This document shows positions 32,205 to 54,725 of a stretch of DNA of 64,000 nucleotides, piece after piece. A program made the position numbers and the translations under genes. The notes under the pieces are model-generated. The model had not been told where the DNA came from and did no database searches. It saw nothing but the letters and a program-made list of their open reading frames with translations. Source of the stretch: an uncultured Acidobacteriota bacterium (GTDB lineage Bacteria; Acidobacteriota; Terriglobia; Terriglobales; Acidobacteriaceae); NCBI GenBank assembly GCA_903873705.1, contig CAIQPK010000035.1:1-64000 (forward strand). The letters are read 5' to 3'. Each line of letters opens with the position of its first letter. Position 1 is the stretch's first letter.

Positions 32205-32474
32205 CTACTTCTGTTCGTTGCTCACCGCAGCATCCGACCCATGCTGCTTAACGATCTTGTTGTAGATTCCCAGCAGCAGAAACGGCGCAACCCATTGCCC
32301 CACAAACAGCGCAGCATGGTCCCTCTTCGCAATCTTGAACGACACCGAAGCCGCAATCGAAGCCACCGCCAGCGCAAGGTAAGCGCTCGACGGCACCTGC
32401 GACGTCACCTTCTCAATCGCTGCTGTTACCTGGTCTTCCTGTGCTTCACCGGCATTGACACGTAAATCGGGCAT
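32205..32474 (-). CDS. small conserved membrane protein
   Basis: 89 residues. A short polar head is followed by two hydrophobic segments (about 30-46 and 58-72, ALFVGQWVAPFLLLGIYNK). No signal peptide. Proteins of this size and pattern recur in Acidobacteria as far as I recall, without a known function. It is divergent from the his leader region. Confidence 0.65.
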   Translation of the reverse strand: MPDLRVNAGEAQEDQVTAAIEKVTSQVPSSAYLALAVASIAASVSFKIAKRDHAALFVGQWVAPFLLLGIYNKIVKQHGSDAAVSNEQK

Positions 32475-32585
32475 GACATTATCTCCACGGCAGTTGCCGT
32501 CCGTAGACAGATGCCAACTCCTTGCAAAACGCCGTTTGCGAAGAAACTTAATTCCCGGGCAACGCCCGTCAACCCCGTGCGCCCG

Positions 32586-32614
32586 TTGACATAGCGCCGT
32601 CGTGGCGATAGCGT
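32586..32614 (+). promoter_or_regulatory. predicted promoter of his operon
   Basis: TTGACA (32586-32591) is a perfect -35 box. TAGCGT sits 17 bases later (32609-32614) as a weak -10. It lies just upstream of the His-rich leader. The short distance to the leader ATG leaves the exact start point open. The spacer 32475-32585 shows nothing else. Confidence 0.5.
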
Positions 32615-32622
32615 AGAAGGTA

Positions 32623-32706
32623 ATGAGCGTGCAGCTGCATCATCACGGACTCCATCATCACCATGCGGTTAGCGTGGCAGGGGATGTGTCCGGTGCGGCG
32701 AAGTAA
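32623..32706 (+). CDS. hisL: his operon leader peptide
   Basis: 27 residues: MSVQLHHHGLHHHHAV, then SVAGDVSGAAK. Codons 6-14 are CAT CAT CAC GGA CTC CAT CAT CAC CAT, so seven of nine are His. GAAGG is just before the ATG (spacing short). The bases right after the His run (32668-32678) can pair with the 5' arm of the downstream terminator (10 bp with one bulge), as an attenuator needs. hisI follows 109 bases after the stop. A peptide of this make-up ahead of eight his genes has one obvious reading: ribosome stalling at His codons when charged tRNA-His is low. Confidence 0.88.
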   Translation: MSVQLHHHGLHHHHAVSVAGDVSGAAK

Positions 32707-32731
32707 CCAAGCGCACAACAGGATTCGAACC

Positions 32732-32769
32732 AAGCCCGCTAACGCGCAACTATCGCGAGCGGGCTTTTT
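32732..32769 (+). terminator. his attenuator terminator
   Basis: AAGCCCGCT (32732-32740) pairs with AGCGGGCTT (32758-32766). An inner CGCG/CGCG stem (32743-32746 with 32754-32757) is separated from it by a 2-nt bulge, and TTTTT follows (32765-32769). The alternative pairing 32668-32678 with 32734-32743 would break it. It lies 46 bases before hisI and follows the His-rich leader peptide. Confidence 0.88.
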
Positions 32770-32815
32770 GCTGCGCGGCGATGCACTCCACAACCGCAGC
32801 AAAAAAGGATAGTCA

Positions 32816-33169
32816 ATGACCGCCGCAGCACTTCCCCAGATCGATTTCGAAAAAGCCGGCGGCCTCGTCGCCGGCATCGTCCAGGACGCCGCCACCGGCG
32901 AAGTCCTCATGCTCGGCTTCCTCAACGAGATCAGCTACCAGAAGACCCTCGAATCCGGCTTCGTCACCTTCTGGTCCCGCACCCGCTCCAAGCTCTGGAT
33001 GAAGGGCGAAACCAGTGGCAACCGCCTCCGCATCCTCTCCGCCGCCACCGACTGCGACAACGACGCCCTCCTCTTCAAAGTCGAAGTAGAAGGCGACGGC
33101 CTCGTCTGCCACGAAGGCACAGTAAGCTGCTTCACCAAACCGATAAAGTTCGAAGTGGTTAGTTCTTAG
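32816..33169 (+). CDS. hisI: phosphoribosyl-AMP cyclohydrolase
   Basis: 117 residues. The metal and active-site motifs VTFWSRTRSKLWMKGETSGN, DCDNDALLFKVEVEG and CHEGTVSCF are all present. AAGGA is seven bases before the ATG. It opens the purine-derived ring in step three of histidine synthesis. It has no fused HisE (pyrophosphohydrolase) domain, and no separate hisE is seen in the window. First structural gene after the attenuator. Confidence 0.97.
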   Translation: MTAAALPQIDFEKAGGLVAGIVQDAATGEVLMLGFLNEISYQKTLESGFVTFWSRTRSKLWMKGETSGNRLRILSAATDCDNDALLFKVEVEGDGLVCHEGTVSCFTKPIKFEVVSS

Positions 33170-33264: not shown

Positions 33265-34140
33265 ATGGCAAACAAACTCAAACTCGGCATTCCCAAAGGC
33301 AGTCTCCAGGACGCCACCATCGCCCTCTTCCAGCGCGCCGGCTGGAACATCTACGCCAGCGGCCGCAGCTACTTCCCCTCCATCGACGACATCGAAATCG
33401 AATGCATGTTGGTCCGCGCCCAGGAGATGGCCCGCTACGTCGAGCACGGCGCCCTCGACGCCGGCCTAACCGGCAACGACTGGGTCCTCGAAAACCAGTC
33501 CGACGTGGAGCGCGTCACCTCACTCACCTACTCCAAGGCCAGCCGCACCCGCGTCAAGTGGGTCCTTGCCGTACCGGAAGACTCACCCTTCCAGAAGCCC
33601 GAAGACCTGGCCGGCAAAACCATCGCCACCGAGCTCGTCGAGTTCACCAAGCGCTACTTCGCTGAGAAAAACATCCCCGTCAAAGTCGAGTTCAGCTGGG
33701 GCGCCACCGAAGTAAAGCCACCCACCCTCGCCGACGCCATAGTCGAAGTCACCGAGACCGGCAGCTCCCTCCGCGCCAACCGCCTCCGCATCATCGAGAC
33801 CCTCATGGAGTCCGAGACCCAGCTCATCGCCAACCGCGCCGCCTGGTCCGATCCCTGGAAGCGTTCCAAAATCGAAACCCTCGCCCTCATGCTCAACGGC
33901 GCCATGGCCGCGCAAGTCCAGGTCGGCCTCATGCTCAACGCCAGAAAAGCGGACCTCGACGCCGTCCTCAACGTCCTCCCCGCCCTCAACTCCCCCACCA
34001 TCTCCCACCTCCGAGACCCAGAGTGGGTAGCGTTGAACACGATACTAGACCAATCGGTCGTCCGCGACGTCATACCCAAGCTAAAAGCCGCCGGCGGCAC
34101 CGGCATCGTCGAATACCCGCTCAGCAAAGTCGTCCTGTAA
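33265..34140 (+). CDS. hisG: ATP phosphoribosyltransferase, long form
   Basis: 291 residues, the long HisG with its own C-terminal regulatory domain (about 215-291), so no HisZ is needed. Motifs: [33 protein letters not shown] and the PRPP-loop region [28 protein letters not shown] precedes the ATG. It catalyses the first, feedback-inhibited step of histidine synthesis. Confidence 0.97.
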
Positions 34141-34152
34141 AGGAATAAGCCA

Positions 34153-34614
34153 ATGAAAATCACCTTCGAAATCCTCGGCATTCTGCTCGTAGTCCTCGCC
34201 GCCTACTCCGGCACCATGTACTTCATCCAGCGCAAGCGCGAGCAGCACGCGCAGGCCGAAGGCCTCGTCGTCTACGCCACGCTCGTCTCCAGCGAGCCGG
34301 TCAAGTTCATGAACTCCGTCGGCATGCGCAAGATCACCCTCAGCATTCAGGAGCCCGACAGCGCCCCCCGCGAAGTCGTGCTCCGCTCCCGCGTCGACCC
34401 CGGCCAGAAGCTCACTACCGGCGCCCGTATGCCTGTCGTCATCGACCCCAAAAAGCCCACCCGCATCTACCCCGCCACGCCCGAGTCCGCCAAGCGCGCT
34501 GTCCTCACCGGCTCCCGCCAGGAGCGCCGCGCCATGCAGTCGCAGATGCGCAACCCCCGCCTCCGCGAGCGCCCCCGCACCGGCTACCAACCGCCCGCCT
34601 CCAAACTCCGCTAA
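34153..34614 (+). CDS. hypothetical membrane-anchored protein in his operon
   Basis: 153 residues. One N-terminal membrane helix (about 5-24, FEILGILLVVLAAYSGTMYF), then a beta-rich domain with two similar blocks (VVYATLVSSEPVKFMNS; VVLRSRVDPGQKLTTGARMP) and an Arg-rich tail. The layout resembles DUF3592-type proteins but I cannot confirm it. It starts 12 bases after hisG, so it is cotranscribed. No link to histidine synthesis is visible. Confidence 0.65.
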   Translation: MKITFEILGILLVVLAAYSGTMYFIQRKREQHAQAEGLVVYATLVSSEPVKFMNSVGMRKITLSIQEPDSAPREVVLRSRVDPGQKLTTGARMPVVIDPKKPTRIYPATPESAKRAVLTGSRQERRAMQSQMRNPRLRERPRTGYQPPASKLR

Positions 34615-34722
34615 GCAAATTCACCATAGGTGTATCGCGAGGCTTAGAACTGATGGCCGTTTCCTCCCAAGGAAAACGGCACTGCACGAAATCTTCCACT
34701 CCACCGCATTGGTGAATTTGCT
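34614..34722. repeat. 109-bp nested inverted repeat before hisD
   Basis: AGCAAATTCACCA (34614-34626) is the perfect complement of TGGTGAATTTGCT (34710-34722). Inside, GCCGTTTCC pairs with GGAAAACGGC over a short loop with one bulge. The left arm starts in the stop codon of the 153-residue gene. It may be a small non-autonomous insertion or an intra-operon RNA structure. hisD begins 38 bases later. Confidence 0.7.
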
Positions 34723-34759
34723 GTAGGCATCTGAACCAAACCAGAAGACCGAGAAGGCA

Positions 34760-36031
34760 ATGAAGATCCTCAAAACATTCGGCGACTCCCAACAGCCCGC
34801 AGAAGCGGCCATCCAGTCGCTCGAGCAGCGCGGCGCCGTCAACACCGCCAAGGTCGACACCACGGTCCGCACCATCCTCGCCGACGTCCGCCAGGGCGGC
34901 GACGAAGCCCTCCGCGAGTACGCCACCCGCTTCGACGAACTCGCCGGCCAACCCCTCCAGGTCACCCCCGAAGAAATGCAGGCCGCCTGGGAGGCCACCA
35001 GCGAAGAGCTCAAAGCCGCCCTCCGCCTGGCCCAGGCCAACATCCGCGCCTTCGCTGAAAAGCAACTCCCCCGCGCCTGGAGCTTCCGCCCCGTAGAAGG
35101 CATGGAGGTCGGCCAGATCGTCCGCCCCCTCGGCTCGGTCGGCTGCTACGTCCCCGGCGGCCGCTACCCGCTGCCTTCCACGCTGCTCATGACGACCACG
35201 CCCGCTCAGGTCGCCGGCGTCACCCGCATCGTCGTCTGCTCCCCCAAGCCCGGCCGCGAAACCATGGCCGCCGCCTGGCTCGCTTCACAGGACGCCCCCG
35301 GCACCTTCGAGTTCTACCGCATCGGCGGCGCGCAAGCCGTCGCTGCCATGGCCTTCGGCACCGCCACCATCAAGCCTGTCGACAAGATCGTCGGCCCCGG
35401 CAACCTCTTCGTCACCGCCGCCAAGATCGCCGTCTCCGCCGAAACCGGCATCGACATGCCCGCCGGCCCCACCGAAATCGTCGTCACCAGCGAAACCGGC
35501 GACCCCTCCGGCATCGCCGCCGACCTCGTAGCCCAGGCCGAGCACGACCCCGAAGCCCTCGCCATCCTCATCACCACCAAGGCCGACCTCGCCGAAGAAG
35601 TAGCCCTCGAAGTAAAGCGCCAGTCCCAGACCAACGAGATCGCGCAGCAATCACTCGACGCCCAGGGCTTCATCTTCATCACGCAGACCGTCGAAGAAGC
35701 CCAGGACCTCACCAACCGCCTCGCCCCCGAGCACCTCACCGTCGACGCCGGCGCCGACGTCCGCTGGGTCAAAAACGCCGGCTCCGTCTTCATCGGCCAC
35801 CACACCCCGCAATCCATGGGCGACTACATCTCCGGCCCCAACCACGTCCTCCCCACCGGCCGCAACGGCCGCGTCCGCGGCGGCCTCAGCGTTCTCGACT
35901 TCGTCAAAGTCATCACCGTCCAGCAGTACACCCGCGAAGCCCTTCGCGAAGTCGGCCCCCACACCATCGCCCTCGCCGAAGCAGAAGGTTTAACCGGCCA
36001 CGCCGAAAGCGTGCGCGTGAGGATGCGCTAG
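34760..36031 (+). CDS. hisD: histidinol dehydrogenase
   Basis: 423 residues. GAGAAGG precedes the ATG. Motifs: GSVGCYVPGGRYPLPSTLL, DKIVGPGNLFVTAAK, MPAGPTEIVVTSETG, DLVAQAEHDPEA and LAPEHLTVDAGADV (zinc and catalytic residues). It performs the last two oxidations, histidinol to histidine. It follows the 109-bp inverted repeat. Confidence 0.97.
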   Translation: MKILKTFGDSQQPAEAAIQSLEQRGAVNTAKVDTTVRTILADVRQGGDEALREYATRFDELAGQPLQVTPEEMQAAWEATSEELKAALRLAQANIRAFAEKQLPRAWSFRPVEGMEVGQIVRPLGSVGCYVPGGRYPLPSTLLMTTTPAQVAGVTRIVVCSPKPGRETMAAAWLASQDAPGTFEFYRIGGAQAVAAMAFGTATIKPVDKIVGPGNLFVTAAKIAVSAETGIDMPAGPTEIVVTSETGDPSGIAADLVAQAEHDPEALAILITTKADLAEEVALEVKRQSQTNEIAQQSLDAQGFIFITQTVEEAQDLTNRLAPEHLTVDAGADVRWVKNAGSVFIGHHTPQSMGDYISGPNHVLPTGRNGRVRGGLSVLDFVKVITVQQYTREALREVGPHTIALAEAEGLTGHAESVRVRMR

Positions 36032-36036
36032 TTGTA

Positions 36037-36315
36037 ATGAAGAACGAAGATCAAATTCGATCGGTCATGCTCAACATCCTCAGTACGGGGCTGCTGAATA
36101 TTCGCGCTTACGGAAACGGTGCGATGGCTGCAGAGTGTGCCGCCGAAGCTGATCACTTACACAATCTTCCAGATCTGGTACGAAAACCCACCACCGAACT
36201 CTTGTCCTTCTATCTTCACAGGAGCAAACCTCACTACGAACGGCAAGTGAAAGACACGCGAGGTTTTGCGAATGACTGGAAACGACTTGAAGACCTACTG
36301 CTTGAACAGCAGTAA
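36037..36315 (+). CDS. hypothetical protein in his operon
   Basis: 92 residues, soluble, mostly helical (IRSVMLNILSTGLLNIRAYG near the N terminus). It begins five bases after hisD. Its codon use is visibly less C-ending than that of the flanking his genes, which suggests later arrival. No family recognised. Confidence 0.65.
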   Translation: MKNEDQIRSVMLNILSTGLLNIRAYGNGAMAAECAAEADHLHNLPDLVRKPTTELLSFYLHRSKPHYERQVKDTRGFANDWKRLEDLLLEQQ

Positions 36316-36366
36316 TTTGCGTTGGATTGATATACCGAAGGCCGCGCAAACGCGCGTGAGGATGAG

Positions 36367-37605
36367 ATGAGCGTCGCTTCAAAACTCGCAGCAGGAATCC
36401 CCCAATCGCTCCTCGACGAGCTCCGCGCCGAAGGCGGCCCCTTCGAAGACGATCTCCTGCACAGCCTCAGCCACCTGCCCAAAGCCACGCAGGTCGAGCC
36501 CCGCCGCGCCGTCCTCGCCATGCCCGAGTACCACCCGCCGCTCGCCGGCCGCGACGCCCTGCGCCTCGACTTCAACGAGAACACCCTCGCCCCCAGCCCC
36601 CGCGTCCTCGAAAAACTCCGCAGCCTCACCGCCGAAGGCCTCACCATCTACCCTGAGCGCACCACCACGGAGCGCATCGTCGCCGCCCACTTCGACCTCG
36701 AACCCAACCAGGTTCTCCTCACCAACGGCGTCGACGAAGCCATCCACCTCCTCGCCTGCGCCTTTCTCGACGAGGGCGACGAAGGCCTCCTCTGCACCCC
36801 CGGCTTCTTCATGTACGACGTCTCCATCAGCATGATGACCAGCCGCCTCATCAAGGTCCAGGCCGACGACTCGCTCGCCTTCCCCTTCGAGCGCTTTATC
36901 GCCGCCATCACCCCGCGCACCAAGCTCATCATCATCTCCTCGCCCAACAACCCCACCGGCGCCACCGTCAGCCGCTCGCACCTGCTCGCCATCGCCGCCG
37001 CCGCGCCGCAGGCCGTCCTCATGGTCGACGAAGCCTACTTCCACTTCCACGGCGAAACCACCATGCCCGACGCCGGCAAAATCCCCAACCTCCTCGTAGC
37101 CCGCACCTTCTCCAAAGCCTACGGCCTCGCCAACCTCCGCGTCGGCCTGCTCGCCGGCGACGCCCGCCTCATCGGCTTCCTCCACAAAGTCAGCTCGCCC
37201 TACAACGTCAACGGCGTCGCCCTCGCGGTCCTCCCCGAAGCCCTCGCTGACCAGGCCTACCTCGACTGGTACGTCGCCGAAGTCCGCACCGGCCGCGACC
37301 GCGTCTACGCCGCCCTCTCCGAGCTCGGCATCCGCCACTGGAAATCCGCCGCCAACTTCGTCCTCATGGACATCGGCCCCAAACACAAAGCCCTCGTCGC
37401 CGCCATGCGCTCCCGCGGCGTCCTCCTCCGCGACCGCTCCGCCGACCCCGGCTGCGACGGCTACGTCCGCATCACCGTCGGCGTCGAAGACCAGGTAACC
37501 CGCGGCCTCACCGCCCTCCGCGAGTCCCTCGAAGAAATCGCCTGGACTCCCGCCGAATCCATCCTCGCCCACGGCAAATCCGAAGGAATCAACGAATATG
37601 AATAA
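36367..37605 (+). CDS. hisC: histidinol-phosphate aminotransferase
   Basis: 412 residues, about 50 longer than common HisC because of a head of about 55 residues. PLP-enzyme motifs: LRLDFNENTLAPSPRVLEKL, IIISSPNNPTGATVSRSHLL, VDEAYFHFHGE and the Schiff-base lysine in ARTFSKAYGLANLRVG. It converts imidazole-acetol phosphate to histidinol phosphate. Followed by a repeat-rich spacer of 329 bp. Confidence 0.94.
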   Translation: MSVASKLAAGIPQSLLDELRAEGGPFEDDLLHSLSHLPKATQVEPRRAVLAMPEYHPPLAGRDALRLDFNENTLAPSPRVLEKLRSLTAEGLTIYPERTTTERIVAAHFDLEPNQVLLTNGVDEAIHLLACAFLDEGDEGLLCTPGFFMYDVSISMMTSRLIKVQADDSLAFPFERFIAAITPRTKLIIISSPNNPTGATVSRSHLLAIAAAAPQAVLMVDEAYFHFHGETTMPDAGKIPNLLVARTFSKAYGLANLRVGLLAGDARLIGFLHKVSSPYNVNGVALAVLPEALADQAYLDWYVAEVRTGRDRVYAALSELGIRHWKSAANFVLMDIGPKHKALVAAMRSRGVLLRDRSADPGCDGYVRITVGVEDQVTRGLTALRESLEEIAWTPAESILAHGKSEGINEYE

Positions 37606-37934
37606 GGAACCCCTTCAGCATCAAGCAATACTCTTCACAATGTCATCCCGTATGGATCTGCTTCTGTAGTTGCCGTTGCTGTTGCTGTTCTTTGACATTT
37701 TCTCGAAGAGAAATTGTCATCCTGAGCGAAGCGAATGGACCTGCTTCATCGCTCCTGCCTTCTCCCGTTGTTGCCGTTGCATGTTCTCGCACTTGCCTCT
37801 AGGTACCCCAAGGCTTCAGCCTTGGGTCTCATACGCCGCCTAAAGAAACGGGGCTTTAGCCCCTGGGGTATGCCCTCCTTTCCCGGCCACCATTTCAAGC
37901 CCGACGCGACCTCGGGCCGCACCAAAGGAGCACT
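37606..37934. repeat. repeat-rich spacer between hisC and hisB
   Basis: No gene is seen in this spacer. It holds a TTGCNG-type tract (about 37650-37690), a hairpin repeat at 37694-37752 (GACATTTTCTC ... GAGAAATTGTC, then CCTGAGCGAAGCGAA), and a two-hairpin repeat at 37801-37878 (CCCAAGGCTTCAGCCTTGGG; GGGGCTTTAGCCCC). Both repeats recur near 43-44 kb. The hairpins could weaken transcription from hisC into hisB. Confidence 0.8.
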
Positions 37935-38567
37935 ATGTCCGACCTCGTCAAAGAACTAGGCGTAGCCCCAACCACCGACGCCCGCATCGGCACGGTCAAC
38001 CGCAAAACCCTCGAAACCGACATCGCCCTCCGCCTCAACGTCGACGGCATGGGCACCTACACCGTCTCCACCGGCATCCGCTTCTTCGACCACATGCTCG
38101 AAAGCTTCGCCAAGCACGGCGGCTTCGACCTCCAACTCAAATGCCTCGGCGACCTCGACGTCGACCAGCACCACACCGTCGAAGACGTCGGCATCGCCCT
38201 CGGCGAAGCCTTCGCCGAAGCCCTCGGCGACAAACGCGGCATCCTCCGCGCCGGCTACTTCGTCATGACCATGGACGAGACCCTCGCCGTCTGCGCCGTA
38301 GACCTCTCCGGCCGCGTAGCCTGCATCGTCGACGACCAGCTAACCGCCCCCCTCGTAGGCGACCTCGTAACCGAACTCATCCCCGACTTCTTCGACGGCT
38401 TCGCCCGCGGCGCCAAGGCCAACATCCACGTCAAAACCATGTACGGCCGCAACAACCACCACAAAATCGAAGCCATCTTCAAAGCCTTCGCCCGAGCCAT
38501 GCGCGGAGCCTGCTCCCGCGACGAACGCATGCGCGAATTACTACCCAGCACCAAAGGCCTGCTTTAA
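37935..38567 (+). CDS. hisB: imidazoleglycerol-phosphate dehydratase
   Basis: 210 residues, the monofunctional dehydratase without the N-terminal phosphatase domain of enteric HisB. Motifs: [37 protein letters not shown] and [20 protein letters not shown] (manganese-binding His clusters). AAAGGAGCACT precedes the ATG. The phosphatase step must be done by a gene outside this window. Confidence 0.97.
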
Positions 38568-38693
38568 TCCCTACCCGTATTGCTTGTCATTCCGTAGCGA
38601 AGCGAAGGAATCTGCTTCTCTTCCACTCGCCACCGAACTCCACTTCAGCCATTGAACGCTCGCCGTTTATCTTCTACGCGAGCAAGTCCCGGG

Positions 38694-38981
38694 ATGAACA
38701 TGAAGAGTCTGACTAGCTCATTCATTTTGACCGCAGTCGCCGCCGCCACTTTCTTCTTCGGCCTCGCCTCATCCGTTTGCCCACCGTCTCTCCGCCTGCC
38801 GGAGATACTCGTTGACCTTGCACTTGTACTGTTCATCGTCGCCTTCATTCAGAATGTGCGCATATCGAAAAACCGACTCTCCGGCAGATTGGCAGCCGCA
38901 ATCATTCTTGGCCTACTGCAACTCGGTTCCGTCGCCATCATTGCCTGGGTAACCGCCATCACTCCACCGGCGACCAGGTAA
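38694..38981 (+). CDS. small membrane protein
   Basis: 95 residues from the ATG at 38694 (93 from 38700); the frame is open upstream to 38652 without a ribosome site. Three hydrophobic segments (about 5-25, 32-48 and 62-84). Codon use is less biased than in the his genes. Not recognised. The spacer before it contains one TGTCATTCC...GAATCTGC repeat (38585-38615). Confidence 0.5.
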   Translation: MNMKSLTSSFILTAVAAATFFFGLASSVCPPSLRLPEILVDLALVLFIVAFIQNVRISKNRLSGRLAAAIILGLLQLGSVAIIAWVTAITPPATR

Positions 38982-39018
38982 TAATCAGCATCATGAAAAT
39001 GAAAGCACCACCCAGCGC

Positions 39019-39288
39019 TTGAAGATCGAACTCCCCAACCAACACCGCGCCGACGCCATCGCCTACCTGCGCCGCTACTTCGACGAAAACATGCCCGAAC
39101 CCCTCGGCGAACTCCCCGCAGGCATCCTCCTCGACTTCTTCCTCGCCGACATCGCCCCCGCCATCTACAACCAGGGCGTAACCGACGCCCAGACCCGCAT
39201 CACCCAACGCGCCAGCGACCTCGAAGGCGAACTCTACATCGACGAATTCCAATACTGGAACCAACGCAACGCCGGCAAACGTAAGTAA
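39019..39288 (+). CDS. DUF2164-like protein
   Basis: 89 residues with a TTG start at 39019; the frame is closed upstream (TGA at 38995). The sequence AIAYLRRYFDENMPEPLGEL and LLDFFLADIAPAIYNQGVTD matches what I know of DUF2164, small soluble proteins of unknown role. No clear ribosome site is seen. It lies inside the his cluster between hisB and hisH. Confidence 0.8.
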   Translation: MKIELPNQHRADAIAYLRRYFDENMPEPLGELPAGILLDFFLADIAPAIYNQGVTDAQTRITQRASDLEGELYIDEFQYWNQRNAGKRK

Positions 39289-39351
39289 TGCAAAGGCGGC
39301 CGAGCGGGCTTCAACAAGGAACCACAACTTGTTAGAAAGGCGGATCAGCGA

Positions 39352-39693
39352 ATGACCATATTCCAGGCGCGCGAACTTTGGGGACGGATCATCCTCGCGC
39401 TTTCCGCCGCCACTGCCTGCCTGTTGCTTCTCGAAATAGCAGGATGTGAAATCACTTCCCGCATTTCTCGTCACACCCTTGCAACGATCCCTTGGGTCAG
39501 AACTCACCATGATGACAGGAGTCTTCTCCGCATCATGATGCCCACCTGGTTTGCAAGCATGGCCCTCTTCTTACTTTCGTTGTTCGCGGTCGGCAGAAGT
39601 CGACGCAGCCCCTTCATCGTGTCCGCAGGCTGCGCAGTGGGCGCGCCACTTCTCCTTTTTGCAATCGTGGCAATCGATGGATGGCTGCGTTGA
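39352..39693 (+). CDS. hypothetical membrane protein
   Basis: 113 residues with three hydrophobic segments (about 10-28, 60-80 and 88-108). AAGGCGG lies upstream of the ATG. Codon use is unlike that of the neighbouring his genes, suggesting an acquired gene. No family is recognised. Confidence 0.55.
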   Translation: MTIFQARELWGRIILALSAATACLLLLEIAGCEITSRISRHTLATIPWVRTHHDDRSLLRIMMPTWFASMALFLLSLFAVGRSRRSPFIVSAGCAVGAPLLLFAIVAIDGWLR

Positions 39694-39786
39694 ACGCAGC
39701 CGTTGAAGAGAGTCGCAGTGTCCGCAAAAGCAATCGAAAGGTACGAGCTTATACTTAACTCAAGAACGTTCTTGGAGGTGAAAACC

Positions 39787-40167
39787 ATGGCGCACACAGC
39801 ACACGTATTCTCCGAGAACGGTGAAAAACTCATTCGTCTTCCCGAAGGAGTTGAACCTGCAGCCTCGGAGTTCGACGTCCATCACGACGAGCATTCCGGC
39901 CAGATCACCCTCCTTCCTCATCGCCCCAAAGATCAGAAATCGTTGGATGATTTCTTCAAGCTGCGAGACGAAATCGGACCCATCGAAGAGGACTTCATGG
40001 CCTATCGTGACCGTGAAAGGCAGATCTTCGGCAAGGTCGCTCAGCAGGCCGCGAAGCCCGACACGCTGGATCGTTTCTTCGAGATACAACGTCAGACCGG
40101 TCCCGGCGAAGAAGACTTTCTTGCCGACCGCGATGCGTGGCCGTCTCCACCACGAGAAGTTTTCTAA
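39787..40167 (+). CDS. VapB-type antitoxin with duplicated C-terminal motif
   Basis: 126 residues from the ATG at 39787, preceded by TTGGAGGTG. The N terminus (HTAHVFSENGEKLIRLPEGV) is an AbrB/MazE-like DNA-binding fold as in VapB. The C-terminal part has two similar copies of a toxin-binding-like motif: SLDDFFKLRDEIGPIEEDFM and TLDRFFEIQRQTGPGEEDFL. Its stop overlaps the VapC start (TAATG), the usual vapBC coupling. It appears intact while the toxin is not. Confidence 0.8.
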   Translation: MAHTAHVFSENGEKLIRLPEGVEPAASEFDVHHDEHSGQITLLPHRPKDQKSLDDFFKLRDEIGPIEEDFMAYRDRERQIFGKVAQQAAKPDTLDRFFEIQRQTGPGEEDFLADRDAWPSPPREVF

Positions 40168-40346
40168 TGCCCGGATATCTGCTGGACACCAACATAGTCA
40201 GCTACTTTTTGAAGATGCCCGATAGCCCTCTCGCTAAACGCATTCATAGCGTACCTGCGCCCAGTATCTGCATTTCGACGATCACAGAAGCGGCGCTCCG
40301 CTACGGCATCCTCAGCATCTCGCCCGAAGATTGGACTACCGCATGA
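40167..40346 (+). pseudogene. truncated VapC toxin (PIN domain)
   Basis: 59 residues, less than half of a normal VapC (about 130-140). The beginning [20 protein letters not shown] has the first catalytic Asp, and [14 protein letters not shown] has the conserved Glu. The frame then runs into [10 protein letters not shown] and stops by overlapping the hisH start (ATGA at 40343-40346). The second half, with the remaining acidic residues, is missing. It looks like a deletion that joined the toxin remnant to hisH. It is probably inactive. Confidence 0.8.
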
Positions 40347-40954
40347 TCGCCGTCATCGACTACAAGGCCGGCAACCTCACCAGCGTCGTAAAAGCCCTGC
40401 GCTTCCTCGGCGCCACCGACGTCCTTGTCACCCAGTCGCCCGACGACGTCCTCCGCGCCGACAAAGTCGTCCTTCCCGGCGTCGGACACTTCCAGTCCAC
40501 CCAACTGCTCGCCGACCTCGGCCTAACCCAGGCCACCCGCGAAGCCGTAGCCAAAGGCACACCCTTCCTCGGCATCTGCGTCGGCCTCCAGTGGCTCTAC
40601 GCCGGCTCCACCGAAGCACCCGACACCGCCGGCCTCGCCCACTTCGCCGGCCAGTGCGAGCGCTTCCCCGCCACCTTCGAAAACTCCGAACTAAAGTCCC
40701 CGCACGTCGGCTGGAACTCCCTCGAAAACATCCGCCCCGACTCCCGCCTCCTCGCGGGCATCGCCCCCGGCAGCTTCGTCTACTACACCCACTCCTGGCG
40801 CGCCCTCATCTCCGCCGACACCGCCGCAGCCACCCTCTACGGCGGCCCCTTCACCGCCGCCGTAGAACGCAACAACGTCATGGGCGTCCAATTCCACCCC
40901 GAAAAATCCGCCGAAACCGGCCTCAAAGTCCTCACCAACTTCCTCAACCTCTAA
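40343..40954 (+). CDS. hisH: imidazole glycerol phosphate synthase, glutamine amidotransferase subunit
   Basis: 203 residues from the ATG at 40343 ([20 protein letters not shown]); an in-frame TTG at 40331 would add four residues. The nucleophile is Cys79 in [12 protein letters not shown], and the His-Glu pair is in [13 protein letters not shown]. It supplies ammonia to HisF. Its start overlaps the VapC remnant by four bases. Confidence 0.96.
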
Positions 40955-40998
40955 CGCGCTCACTACGCTCTACCCTCTACGCTCTACCCACTGACCCT

Positions 40999-41769
40999 AT
41001 GCTGACCAAACGCATCATCGCCTGCCTCGACGTCCGCGCCGGCCGCGTAGTAAAAGGCATCCAGTTCCTCGACATCATCGACGCCGGCGACCCCGCCGAG
41101 CTAGCCCACCGCCACGCCGCCGCCGGCGCCGACGAAATCGTCCTCCTCGACATCACCGCCACCCACGAAGGCCGCGGCACACTCCTCGACACCGTCAAGC
41201 GCACCGCCGCCAGCCTCTTCGTCCCCTTCACCGTCGGCGGCGGCATCCGATCAGCCGAAGACGCCGAAGCCGTCTTCACCGCCGGCGCCGACAAAGTCTC
41301 CATCAACTCCTCCGCCATCGCCCGCCCCGAGCTCATCGGCGAAATCGGCGCCAGCTTCGGCGCCCAGGCCGTCATCGTCGCCATAGACGCCCGCCGTGGC
41401 AACCGCCCCGCCCACGAAGCCGAAGTCTTCGTCTCCGGCGGCCGCAAACCCACCGGTCTCCGCGTCGTCGACTGGGCCCGCGAAGCCGAGCAGCGCGGCG
41501 CCGGCGAAATCCTCCTCCCCAGCATGGACACCGACGGCATGAGAAACGGCTTCGACTGCGAACTCACCCGCGCCGTCTCCGAAGCCGTCCAGATCCCCGT
41601 CATCGCCTCCGGCGGCGCCGGCTCAGCCGCCCACTTCGCCGAAGTCTTCAAGTCCGGCAAAGCCGACGCCGCCCTGGCCGCCAGCATCTTCCACTTCGGC
41701 ATCACCGACTCCCGCGCCCTCAAAGCCGAAGTAGCCGCCGCCGGTGTACCCATGAGGCTGCCATGCTGA
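40999..41769 (+). CDS. hisF: imidazole glycerol phosphate synthase, cyclase subunit
   Basis: 256 residues. Catalytic Asp11 is in [16 protein letters not shown], and the second Asp is in [30 protein letters not shown] and [18 protein letters not shown] are the phosphate-binding strands. The spacer after hisH is 44 bases of GCTCTACCC-type repeat. The last codons overlap the next gene (ATGCTGA). Confidence 0.97.
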
Positions 41770-54630: not shown

Positions 54631-54725
54631 TAGCGCTGAAGGCGCGGCCTATACCAGCATGGGGCGCAGCCCCATGTAAGCTCCGAAATAAGAGCGAAGG
54701 GCTGAAAGCCCGCCCTATCCCAGCC
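54631..54725. repeat. dispersed GCGCTGAAGGCGC repeat
   Basis: TAGCGCTGAAGGCGCG is followed by ATACCAGC, a GGGGCGCAGCCCC hairpin and AGGGCTGAAAGCCCGCCC. Related copies start at 7271 and 59554. Lies just after rnr, no coding capacity. Confidence 0.75.

Follow-up and report, generated by a model that had tools for sequence, protein, structure and literature searches.

The histidine genes in this stretch of acidobacterial DNA are preceded by a tiny reading frame crowded with histidine codons, which raises the question of whether a ribosome reading this frame governs transcription of the genes, and how it could do so. Attenuation of his operons by a peptide leader is a textbook mechanism, best known from gut bacteria. 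Our analysis suggests, at a probability of about 0.9, that the frame belongs to a histidine-sensing, ribosome-mediated transcription attenuator of the hisI-G-D-C-B-H-F cluster; Acidobacteriota soil bacteria appear to switch their his genes by means of a ribosome that reads a tiny His-rich peptide at the start of the message. The genes of the cluster, all within the window (the whole stretch analysed, 64,000 nucleotides), are as follows.

32816 to 33169, + strand: hisI (phosphoribosyl-AMP cyclohydrolase), which opens the his cluster (NF000768, 127.8 bits, cut-off 126)
33265 to 34140, + strand: hisG (NCBIfam match)
34760 to 36031, + strand: hisD (NCBIfam match)
36367 to 37605, + strand: hisC (NCBIfam, 271.1 against a curated cut-off of 276.55, thus just below it)
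37935 to 38567, + strand: hisB (NCBIfam match)
40331 to 40954, + strand: hisH (NCBIfam match)
40591 to 41769, + strand: hisF, a domain within the frame (NCBIfam match)

The order is hisI, hisG, hisD, hisC, hisB, hisH, hisF with small ORFs between, and the cluster after hisI spans 33265–41769 on the + strand; the small ORFs at 34153–34614 and 36037–36315 gave no NCBIfam or Pfam match. Among named records, the best matches of the window's HisI are from Terracidiphilus, Granulicella, Terriglobus, Edaphobacter and other Acidobacteriaceae. The parts of the putative attenuator lie immediately upstream.

32586 to 32591, + strand: -35-like box TTGACA (read from the sequence; TTGAC is conserved upstream of the leaders)
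32609 to 32614, + strand: -10-like box TAGCGT, with a 17-nt spacer to TTGACA and 14 nt 5' of the leader start codon
32623 to 32706, + strand: His leader ORF of 27 codons with His at codons 6–8 and 11–14, translation MSVQLHHHGLHHHHAVSVAGDVSGAAK and then the stop
32646 to 32692, + strand: sequestering hairpin (1:2), with an inner helix of 32661–32666 with 32672–32677 (minimum free energy (MFE) fold of 32644–32772)
32646 to 32650 with 32688 to 32692, + strand: outer helix of hairpin 1:2, lineage-specific (MFE fold of 32644–32772)
32653 to 32664, + strand: predicted control codons, the last four His codons (11–14), from His conservation in 99 aligned leaders
32668 to 32678, + strand: antiterminator 5' arm (segment 2), inside the leader ORF (duplex folds; family helix 92.0% paired)
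32732 to 32769, + strand: intrinsic terminator (3:4) with T5 at 32765–32769 (fold; family helix 93.3% paired)
32734 to 32743, + strand: antiterminator 3' arm (segment 3), part of the terminator 5' arm (folds; family helix)

An earlier note on this DNA had placed the leader, terminator, competing pairing, TTGACA and hisI at coordinates that proved correct, and the 27-codon leader with seven His within codons 6–14 reads as it had claimed. Across both strands of the 64 kb window, no other ORF of at most 45 residues has four or more His in ten codons. When 32400–32815 was shuffled 5000 times with dinucleotides preserved, 46 shuffles reached four His in ten codons, seven reached five, and none reached six or seven; the real leader has seven by the same count. 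The ORF continues for 13 codons beyond the His run, and the antiterminator arm is contained in it.

The bulged terminator likewise stands up to folding: the fold of 32728–32772 has an energy of -20.4 kcal/mol (z -3.62), which 0 of 200 shuffles equalled, and its T run ends at 32769, 46 bases before hisI begins. The proposed alternative pairing of 32668–32678 with 32734–32743 comprises seven plus three pairs with one bulged U, and lies within the MFE fold of 32665–32743 (-30.3 kcal/mol, z -2.29, 3/200 shuffles as good). The register of this antiterminator is slid relative to that of the family (32667–32680), and 0/11 family antiterminator pairs are present in the window's fold; the slid helix, GUUAGCG-GGC with GCC-CGCUAAC, is in the MFE fold of that stretch and is predicted to do the same job with other pairs. 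The outer helix of hairpin 1:2, in which Gly-His codons pair with GUGUCC, is plain to see in the window's genome but was rejected as a general feature, as the alignment mean is just 2.5/6 pairs, and is lineage-specific. Between the stop codon and the terminator, the window's close relatives frequently have an AGGATT element (32720–32725); as part of the antiterminator, its GGAU is able to base-pair with GUCC in the leader ORF. By informal reading, a sister group apparently has UGGCC/GGCCA in place of the AGGATT/GUCC pairing.

The earlier note had set comparison with relatives as its refuting test. That comparison did not refute it: the His run, terminator and antiterminator are kept in nearly every hisI-bearing genome of the order, and each of the three helices shows compensatory changes. 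Of the 249 genomes of the order, 212 have a HisI match, and 120 hisI loci were examined, comprising the 30 best matches, 60 hand-picked across genera among the matches listed, and 30 from distant genera and a second family. A His-rich leader ORF lies 5' of hisI in 119 of these 120 loci (30/30 best matches and 88/90 others at first scoring); of the two first-scoring misses, L100, whose contig starts 366 bases before hisI, has a leader on re-scanning, and L089 is a contig end with 118 bases. A terminator-like hairpin follows the leader in 118/118 loci first scored, some of which will be loose folds since the detection accepts any stem adjoining a T-rich stretch. A covariance model (R1) was built from 99 leaders and used in a genome search with strict filters. 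It matches 202/249 genomes of the order, all of them among the 212 that have hisI; the 37 that lack hisI gave no match. Where matches were spot-checked, they sit immediately 5' of hisI and share its strand. The ten hisI-bearing genomes lacking a match are G062, G174, G214, G220 and G234, together with G003, G009, G013, G015 and G019 of family f2; three of the five f2 misses (L117, L118, L119) still carry a His-rich ORF. One leader, L067, is degenerate. In the named collection, leader ORF and model match are present in 80/80 loci, from genomes that overlap with the order set and are not independent of it.

Ten genomes (G017, G021, G081, G091, G094, G100, G143, G175, G190, G222) have two leader-model matches each; the extra one could be a half-match due to a palindrome, or could mark another regulated operon. 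Some of the 37 genomes without a hisI match are near-complete, e.g. G043 of the same genus (completeness 100); these are possible histidine auxotrophs, or may have replaced HisI. A record titled Verrucomicrobia (L267, CAJCIP010000077.1) holds a hisI 88% identical to that of the window and the same kind of leader, and is probably a mislabelled bin.

The RNA helices were chosen after reading the leaders and arm-to-arm duplex folds, then counted on a structure-free MAFFT alignment (A1) of 99 of the 118 leaders. Left out were f2 (L114, L117–L120), L067 (as degenerate rather than duplicate) and thirteen near-duplicates judged by eye (L015, L029, L034, L035, L036, L042, L046, L057, L063, L066, L075, L086, L095); adding L067 and f2 would probably lower the paired percentages slightly. 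The antiterminator helix is paired in 92.0% of cells with 47 double-change cells, and slid versions of it are 29–46% paired. None of 500 shuffles matched it in percentage paired, in double-change cells or in covariation score; on a further measure, how many pairs show a double change, 102/500 did as well, which is not above chance. The terminator helix is 93.3% paired with 50 double-change cells. The inner helix of hairpin 1:2 is 90.7% paired with 35 double-change cells, its +2 slide still pairs 69.8%, and on two of the five shuffle measures it does not exceed chance (293 and 327 of 500). The shuffle test is inflated by related sequences, and a structure derived from sequences beats its own slides; concrete arm swaps weigh more than these statistics. 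Such compensatory pairs of segment 2 and its partner arm include GUGCCGGCGG/CCGCCGGCAC, AUGCCGGCGG/CCGCCGGCAU, GUGUCAGCGG/CCGCUGACAC and AAGUCAGCGG/CCGCUGGCUU. When arms were exchanged among 113 leaders, segment 2 paired with its own partner at -20.6 kcal/mol, with other partners at -18.3 and with shuffled ones at -14.3, a modest test in which a median of 26% of other terminators pair equally well. The arm swaps indicate that the peptide tail, V-S-A, V-P-A or V-L-A, follows the RNA pairing; the tail thus looks conserved because compensatory pairing sets it.

The folds and the geometry of the 99 leaders suggest how these helices could be exchanged. In the segment 2–3 domain, the antiterminator is in the MFE fold of 94/99 leaders; the family antiterminator is missing from five domains, those of the window (L001), L003, L010, L064 and L065. 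When the leader is folded from His run through T run, the MFE fold contains the terminator in 93/99, hairpin 1:2 (at least 4/5 pairs) in 42/99 and the antiterminator in 5/99. From segment 2 to the T run, i.e. with arm 1 removed, it contains the terminator in 76/99 and the antiterminator in 21/99. The terminator is therefore favored at equilibrium; for read-through, the antiterminator would have to be in place before segment 4 is transcribed, which is also how the textbook scheme works. In the 99 aligned leaders, the final four codons ahead of segment 2 specify His in 92, 97, 92 and 92 cases; in the five codon columns preceding them, some of which are gapped, His is found in 33–81. In 93/99, the distance from the start of the last His codon to segment 2 is exactly 10 nt, and the hairpin loop measures 5 nt. 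A ribosome extends about 15 nt from the first base of its P site to its leading edge. With one of the last three or four His codons in the A site, it would thus cover arm 1 and leave most of segment 2 free, and on this modeled geometry the last four His codons are predicted to be the control codons.

The proposed cycle would begin with transcription from a predicted start about 2 nt before the leader AUG, so that a ribosome could load on the 5' end once this is clear of RNA polymerase. With ample His-tRNA, the ribosome would reach the stop codon and hairpin 1:2 would re-form behind it, arm 1 (the last His codon and the next codon) pairing with segment 2; segment 3 would then be free for segment 4, and transcription would terminate at the U run. 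With scarce His-tRNA, the ribosome would presumably stall in the last four His codons and cover arm 1. Segment 2, left free, would pair with segment 3 ahead of the synthesis of segment 4, and polymerase would read on into hisI. The switching and the response to histidine, including read-through as a function of histidyl-tRNA charging, we infer from sequence. The elements of the peptide-leader class that can be read from sequence are found here: a short ORF upstream of the operon and rich in codons for its own end product, an intrinsic terminator between leader and hisI, an antiterminator that is mutually exclusive with the terminator and conserved by covariation, and a sequestering hairpin that overlaps the control codons, but is part of the MFE fold in 42/99 leaders only.

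The perfect TTGACA that had been reported upstream is present, and TTGAC lies at -35 to -41 from the leader start codon in 101/118 loci of the order. TANNNT lies at -13 to -17 in 96/118, and in 92/118 the two boxes occur together, their distance to the leader AUG being nearly constant; SD-like 5-mers at the leader start occur in just 4/118. For L012 and L019, the start codon was shifted by hand to a downstream in-frame codon in these start-site counts, and for L012 also in the leader reading. The hisI starts of the same genomes (n = 112 with an ATG found) have TANNNT in 0 and an SD-like site in 69. Outside the order, TANNNT is at -13 to -17 in 14 of 17 leaders tested. A -10 box 14–16 nt before the AUG places the start site 2–4 nt before it, which makes for a leaderless or nearly leaderless message; for the window, the start is predicted at about 32621, with a 5'UTR of about 2 nt. 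Together with the scarcity of SD-like sites, this spacing suggests that the leader is translated leaderlessly, a reading that we consider likely. Leaderless genes are predicted at a mean of 13.3% in three Acidobacteria genomes, in the figures given for that phylum by PMC3160421. A genome-wide search for the promoter–AUG pattern returned 13 matches, and its reversed control gave 7; taken alone, the pattern proves little.

The same attenuator could instead have an ordinary 5'UTR, with the true promoter further upstream and the box near the AUG incidental. A consensus scan of the window, the limits of which are stricter, reported neither the 32586–32614 promoter nor the 32732–32769 terminator, and its only promoter-like site is TTGACA-16-CATTAT (10/12 match) at 32455–32482, which would serve such a reading; GAAGG just 5' of the window's ATG also resembles a weak SD. 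Against it, the two boxes keep their near-fixed distance in 92/118 loci and SD-like sites number 4/118, the -10 spacing recurs in 14/17 leaders outside the order, and the pattern is reversed at the hisI starts (TANNNT 0/112, SD-like 69/112). We consider an upstream promoter unlikely, and favor the leaderless start.

The remaining alternatives concern what the leader does. That the His-rich peptide is itself the product, e.g. a metal-binding micropeptide, with its position before the operon incidental, is brought to mind by HHHGHHHHH, which resembles metal-binding stretches. Its tail residues, however, match the changed terminator arms in step with the RNA pairing, and 0/37 hisI-less genomes have a model match, making this reading highly improbable. 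Scarcely more credible is translational control, in which the leader would govern access to the hisI ribosome-binding site rather than termination: PMC13236596 cites the leaderless polycysteine uORFs of mycobacteria as working through translation attenuation, but the scored loci here have terminator-like hairpins with a T run before hisI. Least credible of all is a chance His run beside an unrelated terminator. The 46/5000 shuffles that reach four His in ten codons show that a lesser run can arise, whereas 0/5000 reach six and a His-rich leader is present in 119/120 loci; conservation refutes it. Transcription attenuation by a leaderless-type His leader thus remains the preferred reading.

The earlier note had called this attenuator classical, a term that has to be qualified; the leaderless-looking start, the antiterminator arm within the leader ORF and the want of an enterobacterial Rfam match set it apart. 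The Rfam His_leader family (RF00514) was not matched anywhere in the window at its gathering score, nor in 32500–32900 at E ≤ 10; sub-threshold hits in the latter are Trp_leader (14.2 of 41 bits), Thr_leader (13.4 of 55) and two Burkholderia sRNA families. No Rfam match to a T-box riboswitch was found upstream of the his operon, in the window or in 32500–32900. Unlike enterobacterial hisL, the leader here runs 13 codons past its His run with the antiterminator arm in the ORF, has a leaderless-type start, heads a cluster that begins with hisI, and lacks the RF00514 match. Like hisL (RF00514) as summarized in PMC3896937 and PMC9413887, it is short, has seven His codons, and precedes the his operon with alternative antiterminator and terminator structures. 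His-leader attenuators are predicted in Firmicutes, described in three lineages in the account of PMC9413887, and hisZ/hisS* leaders are treated in PMC2965389; these too have a short His-rich ORF and then alternative hairpins upstream of his genes, but in three lineages and on other genes, whereas here the leader is in nearly all hisI-bearing genomes of one Acidobacteriota order.

Leaderless leader peptides are described for Actinobacteria, namely leuL, trpL, ilvL, metL and thrL of S. lividans (PMC8079986). These resemble the His leader in an ORF at the transcript 5' end (predicted in our case), control codons and, for some of theirs, a terminator; there is no histidine case among the eight leaders described in that account. 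For Corynebacterium his, the discussion in PMC3896937 excludes a peptide-type attenuator and proposes a T-box. The polycysteine uORFs that head mycobacterial operons (PMC4633059) are likewise amino-acid-specific short ORFs, but theirs encode cysteine; they are cited as leaderless and reported for translation attenuation (PMC13236596, citing Canestrari 2020). A description of a His leader in Acidobacteria was not found in open-access literature, among the matches listed, and within that coverage priority is not certain. Amino acid, operon, structure and predicted control codons can all be named for this leader, which is kept in 202/212 hisI-bearing genomes of the order and found in several other families, and a leaderless attenuator makes testable how ribosome and polymerase get into step without a 5'UTR.

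Beyond the order, a sample of the phylum has hisI in 128/198 genomes. The DNA upstream of hisI was read in 50 genomes and that upstream of hisG in 30 loci, together 59 genomes. Leaders with at least five His in ten codons near the gene were found in 18/59 (17 scored, plus L157 on re-reading, a GTG-start leader inside a longer frame, read by eye). Sixteen of the leaders lie upstream of hisI, in seven further families, f3, f15, f24, f33, f44, f46 and f58, and many hisI loci outside the order have no leader in the DNA upstream of hisI and hisG to which the search was confined. As a second anchor, hisG yielded just two new candidates, in family f21 (L174, L177); these have no clear T-run terminator or -10 spacing and are doubtful. 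The f15 leaders (L146, L159) are without a clear hairpin and T run. Two far-upstream His-rich frames, L136 (-1374, four in ten) and L180 (-1469, five in ten), were not counted as leaders. Of the 57 genomes searched for both genes, 16 have hisI then hisG on the same strand within 600 bases (by eye), and 14 of these 16 have a leader; in the exceptions, another reading frame runs up to hisI (G269), or no leader is seen in the ~570 bases available upstream (G300).

The promoter–AUG spacing search in the window's own genome also returned an ORF of 26 codons, eight of them Cys (L204, G000:C30:27402-27442). A CCCACGC...GCGTGGG-TTTT hairpin lies 3' of it, then a cluster with a PF03601 protein (L214). 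A similar Cys-rich leader is present in 15 of the 20 PF03601-protein loci scanned in the genus (25 fetched), L228 being weaker, and by eye the promoter spacing is similar. L204 is a candidate cysteine attenuator of leaderless type. Its presence in the same genome suggests leaderless attenuators to be a design of the group and not a peculiarity of his; we lean towards seeing leaderless amino-acid attenuators as a general regulatory design of Acidobacteriota, of which His and Cys would be two instances. If so, an exposed 5'-terminal AUG would let the ribosome load at once and set it in register with polymerase in a message that has no 5'UTR, and the four codons being sensed would be marked out by the rigid 10-nt spacing. 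Similar proteins of 152 and 156 residues (L201, L209) lie directly behind the same promoter spacing, as leaderless-type genes, and by eye look like Fur-family repressors. Elsewhere in the window, an Acido-Lenti-1 RNA (Rfam RF01687) lies at 54632–54676 on the - strand, at 42 bits.
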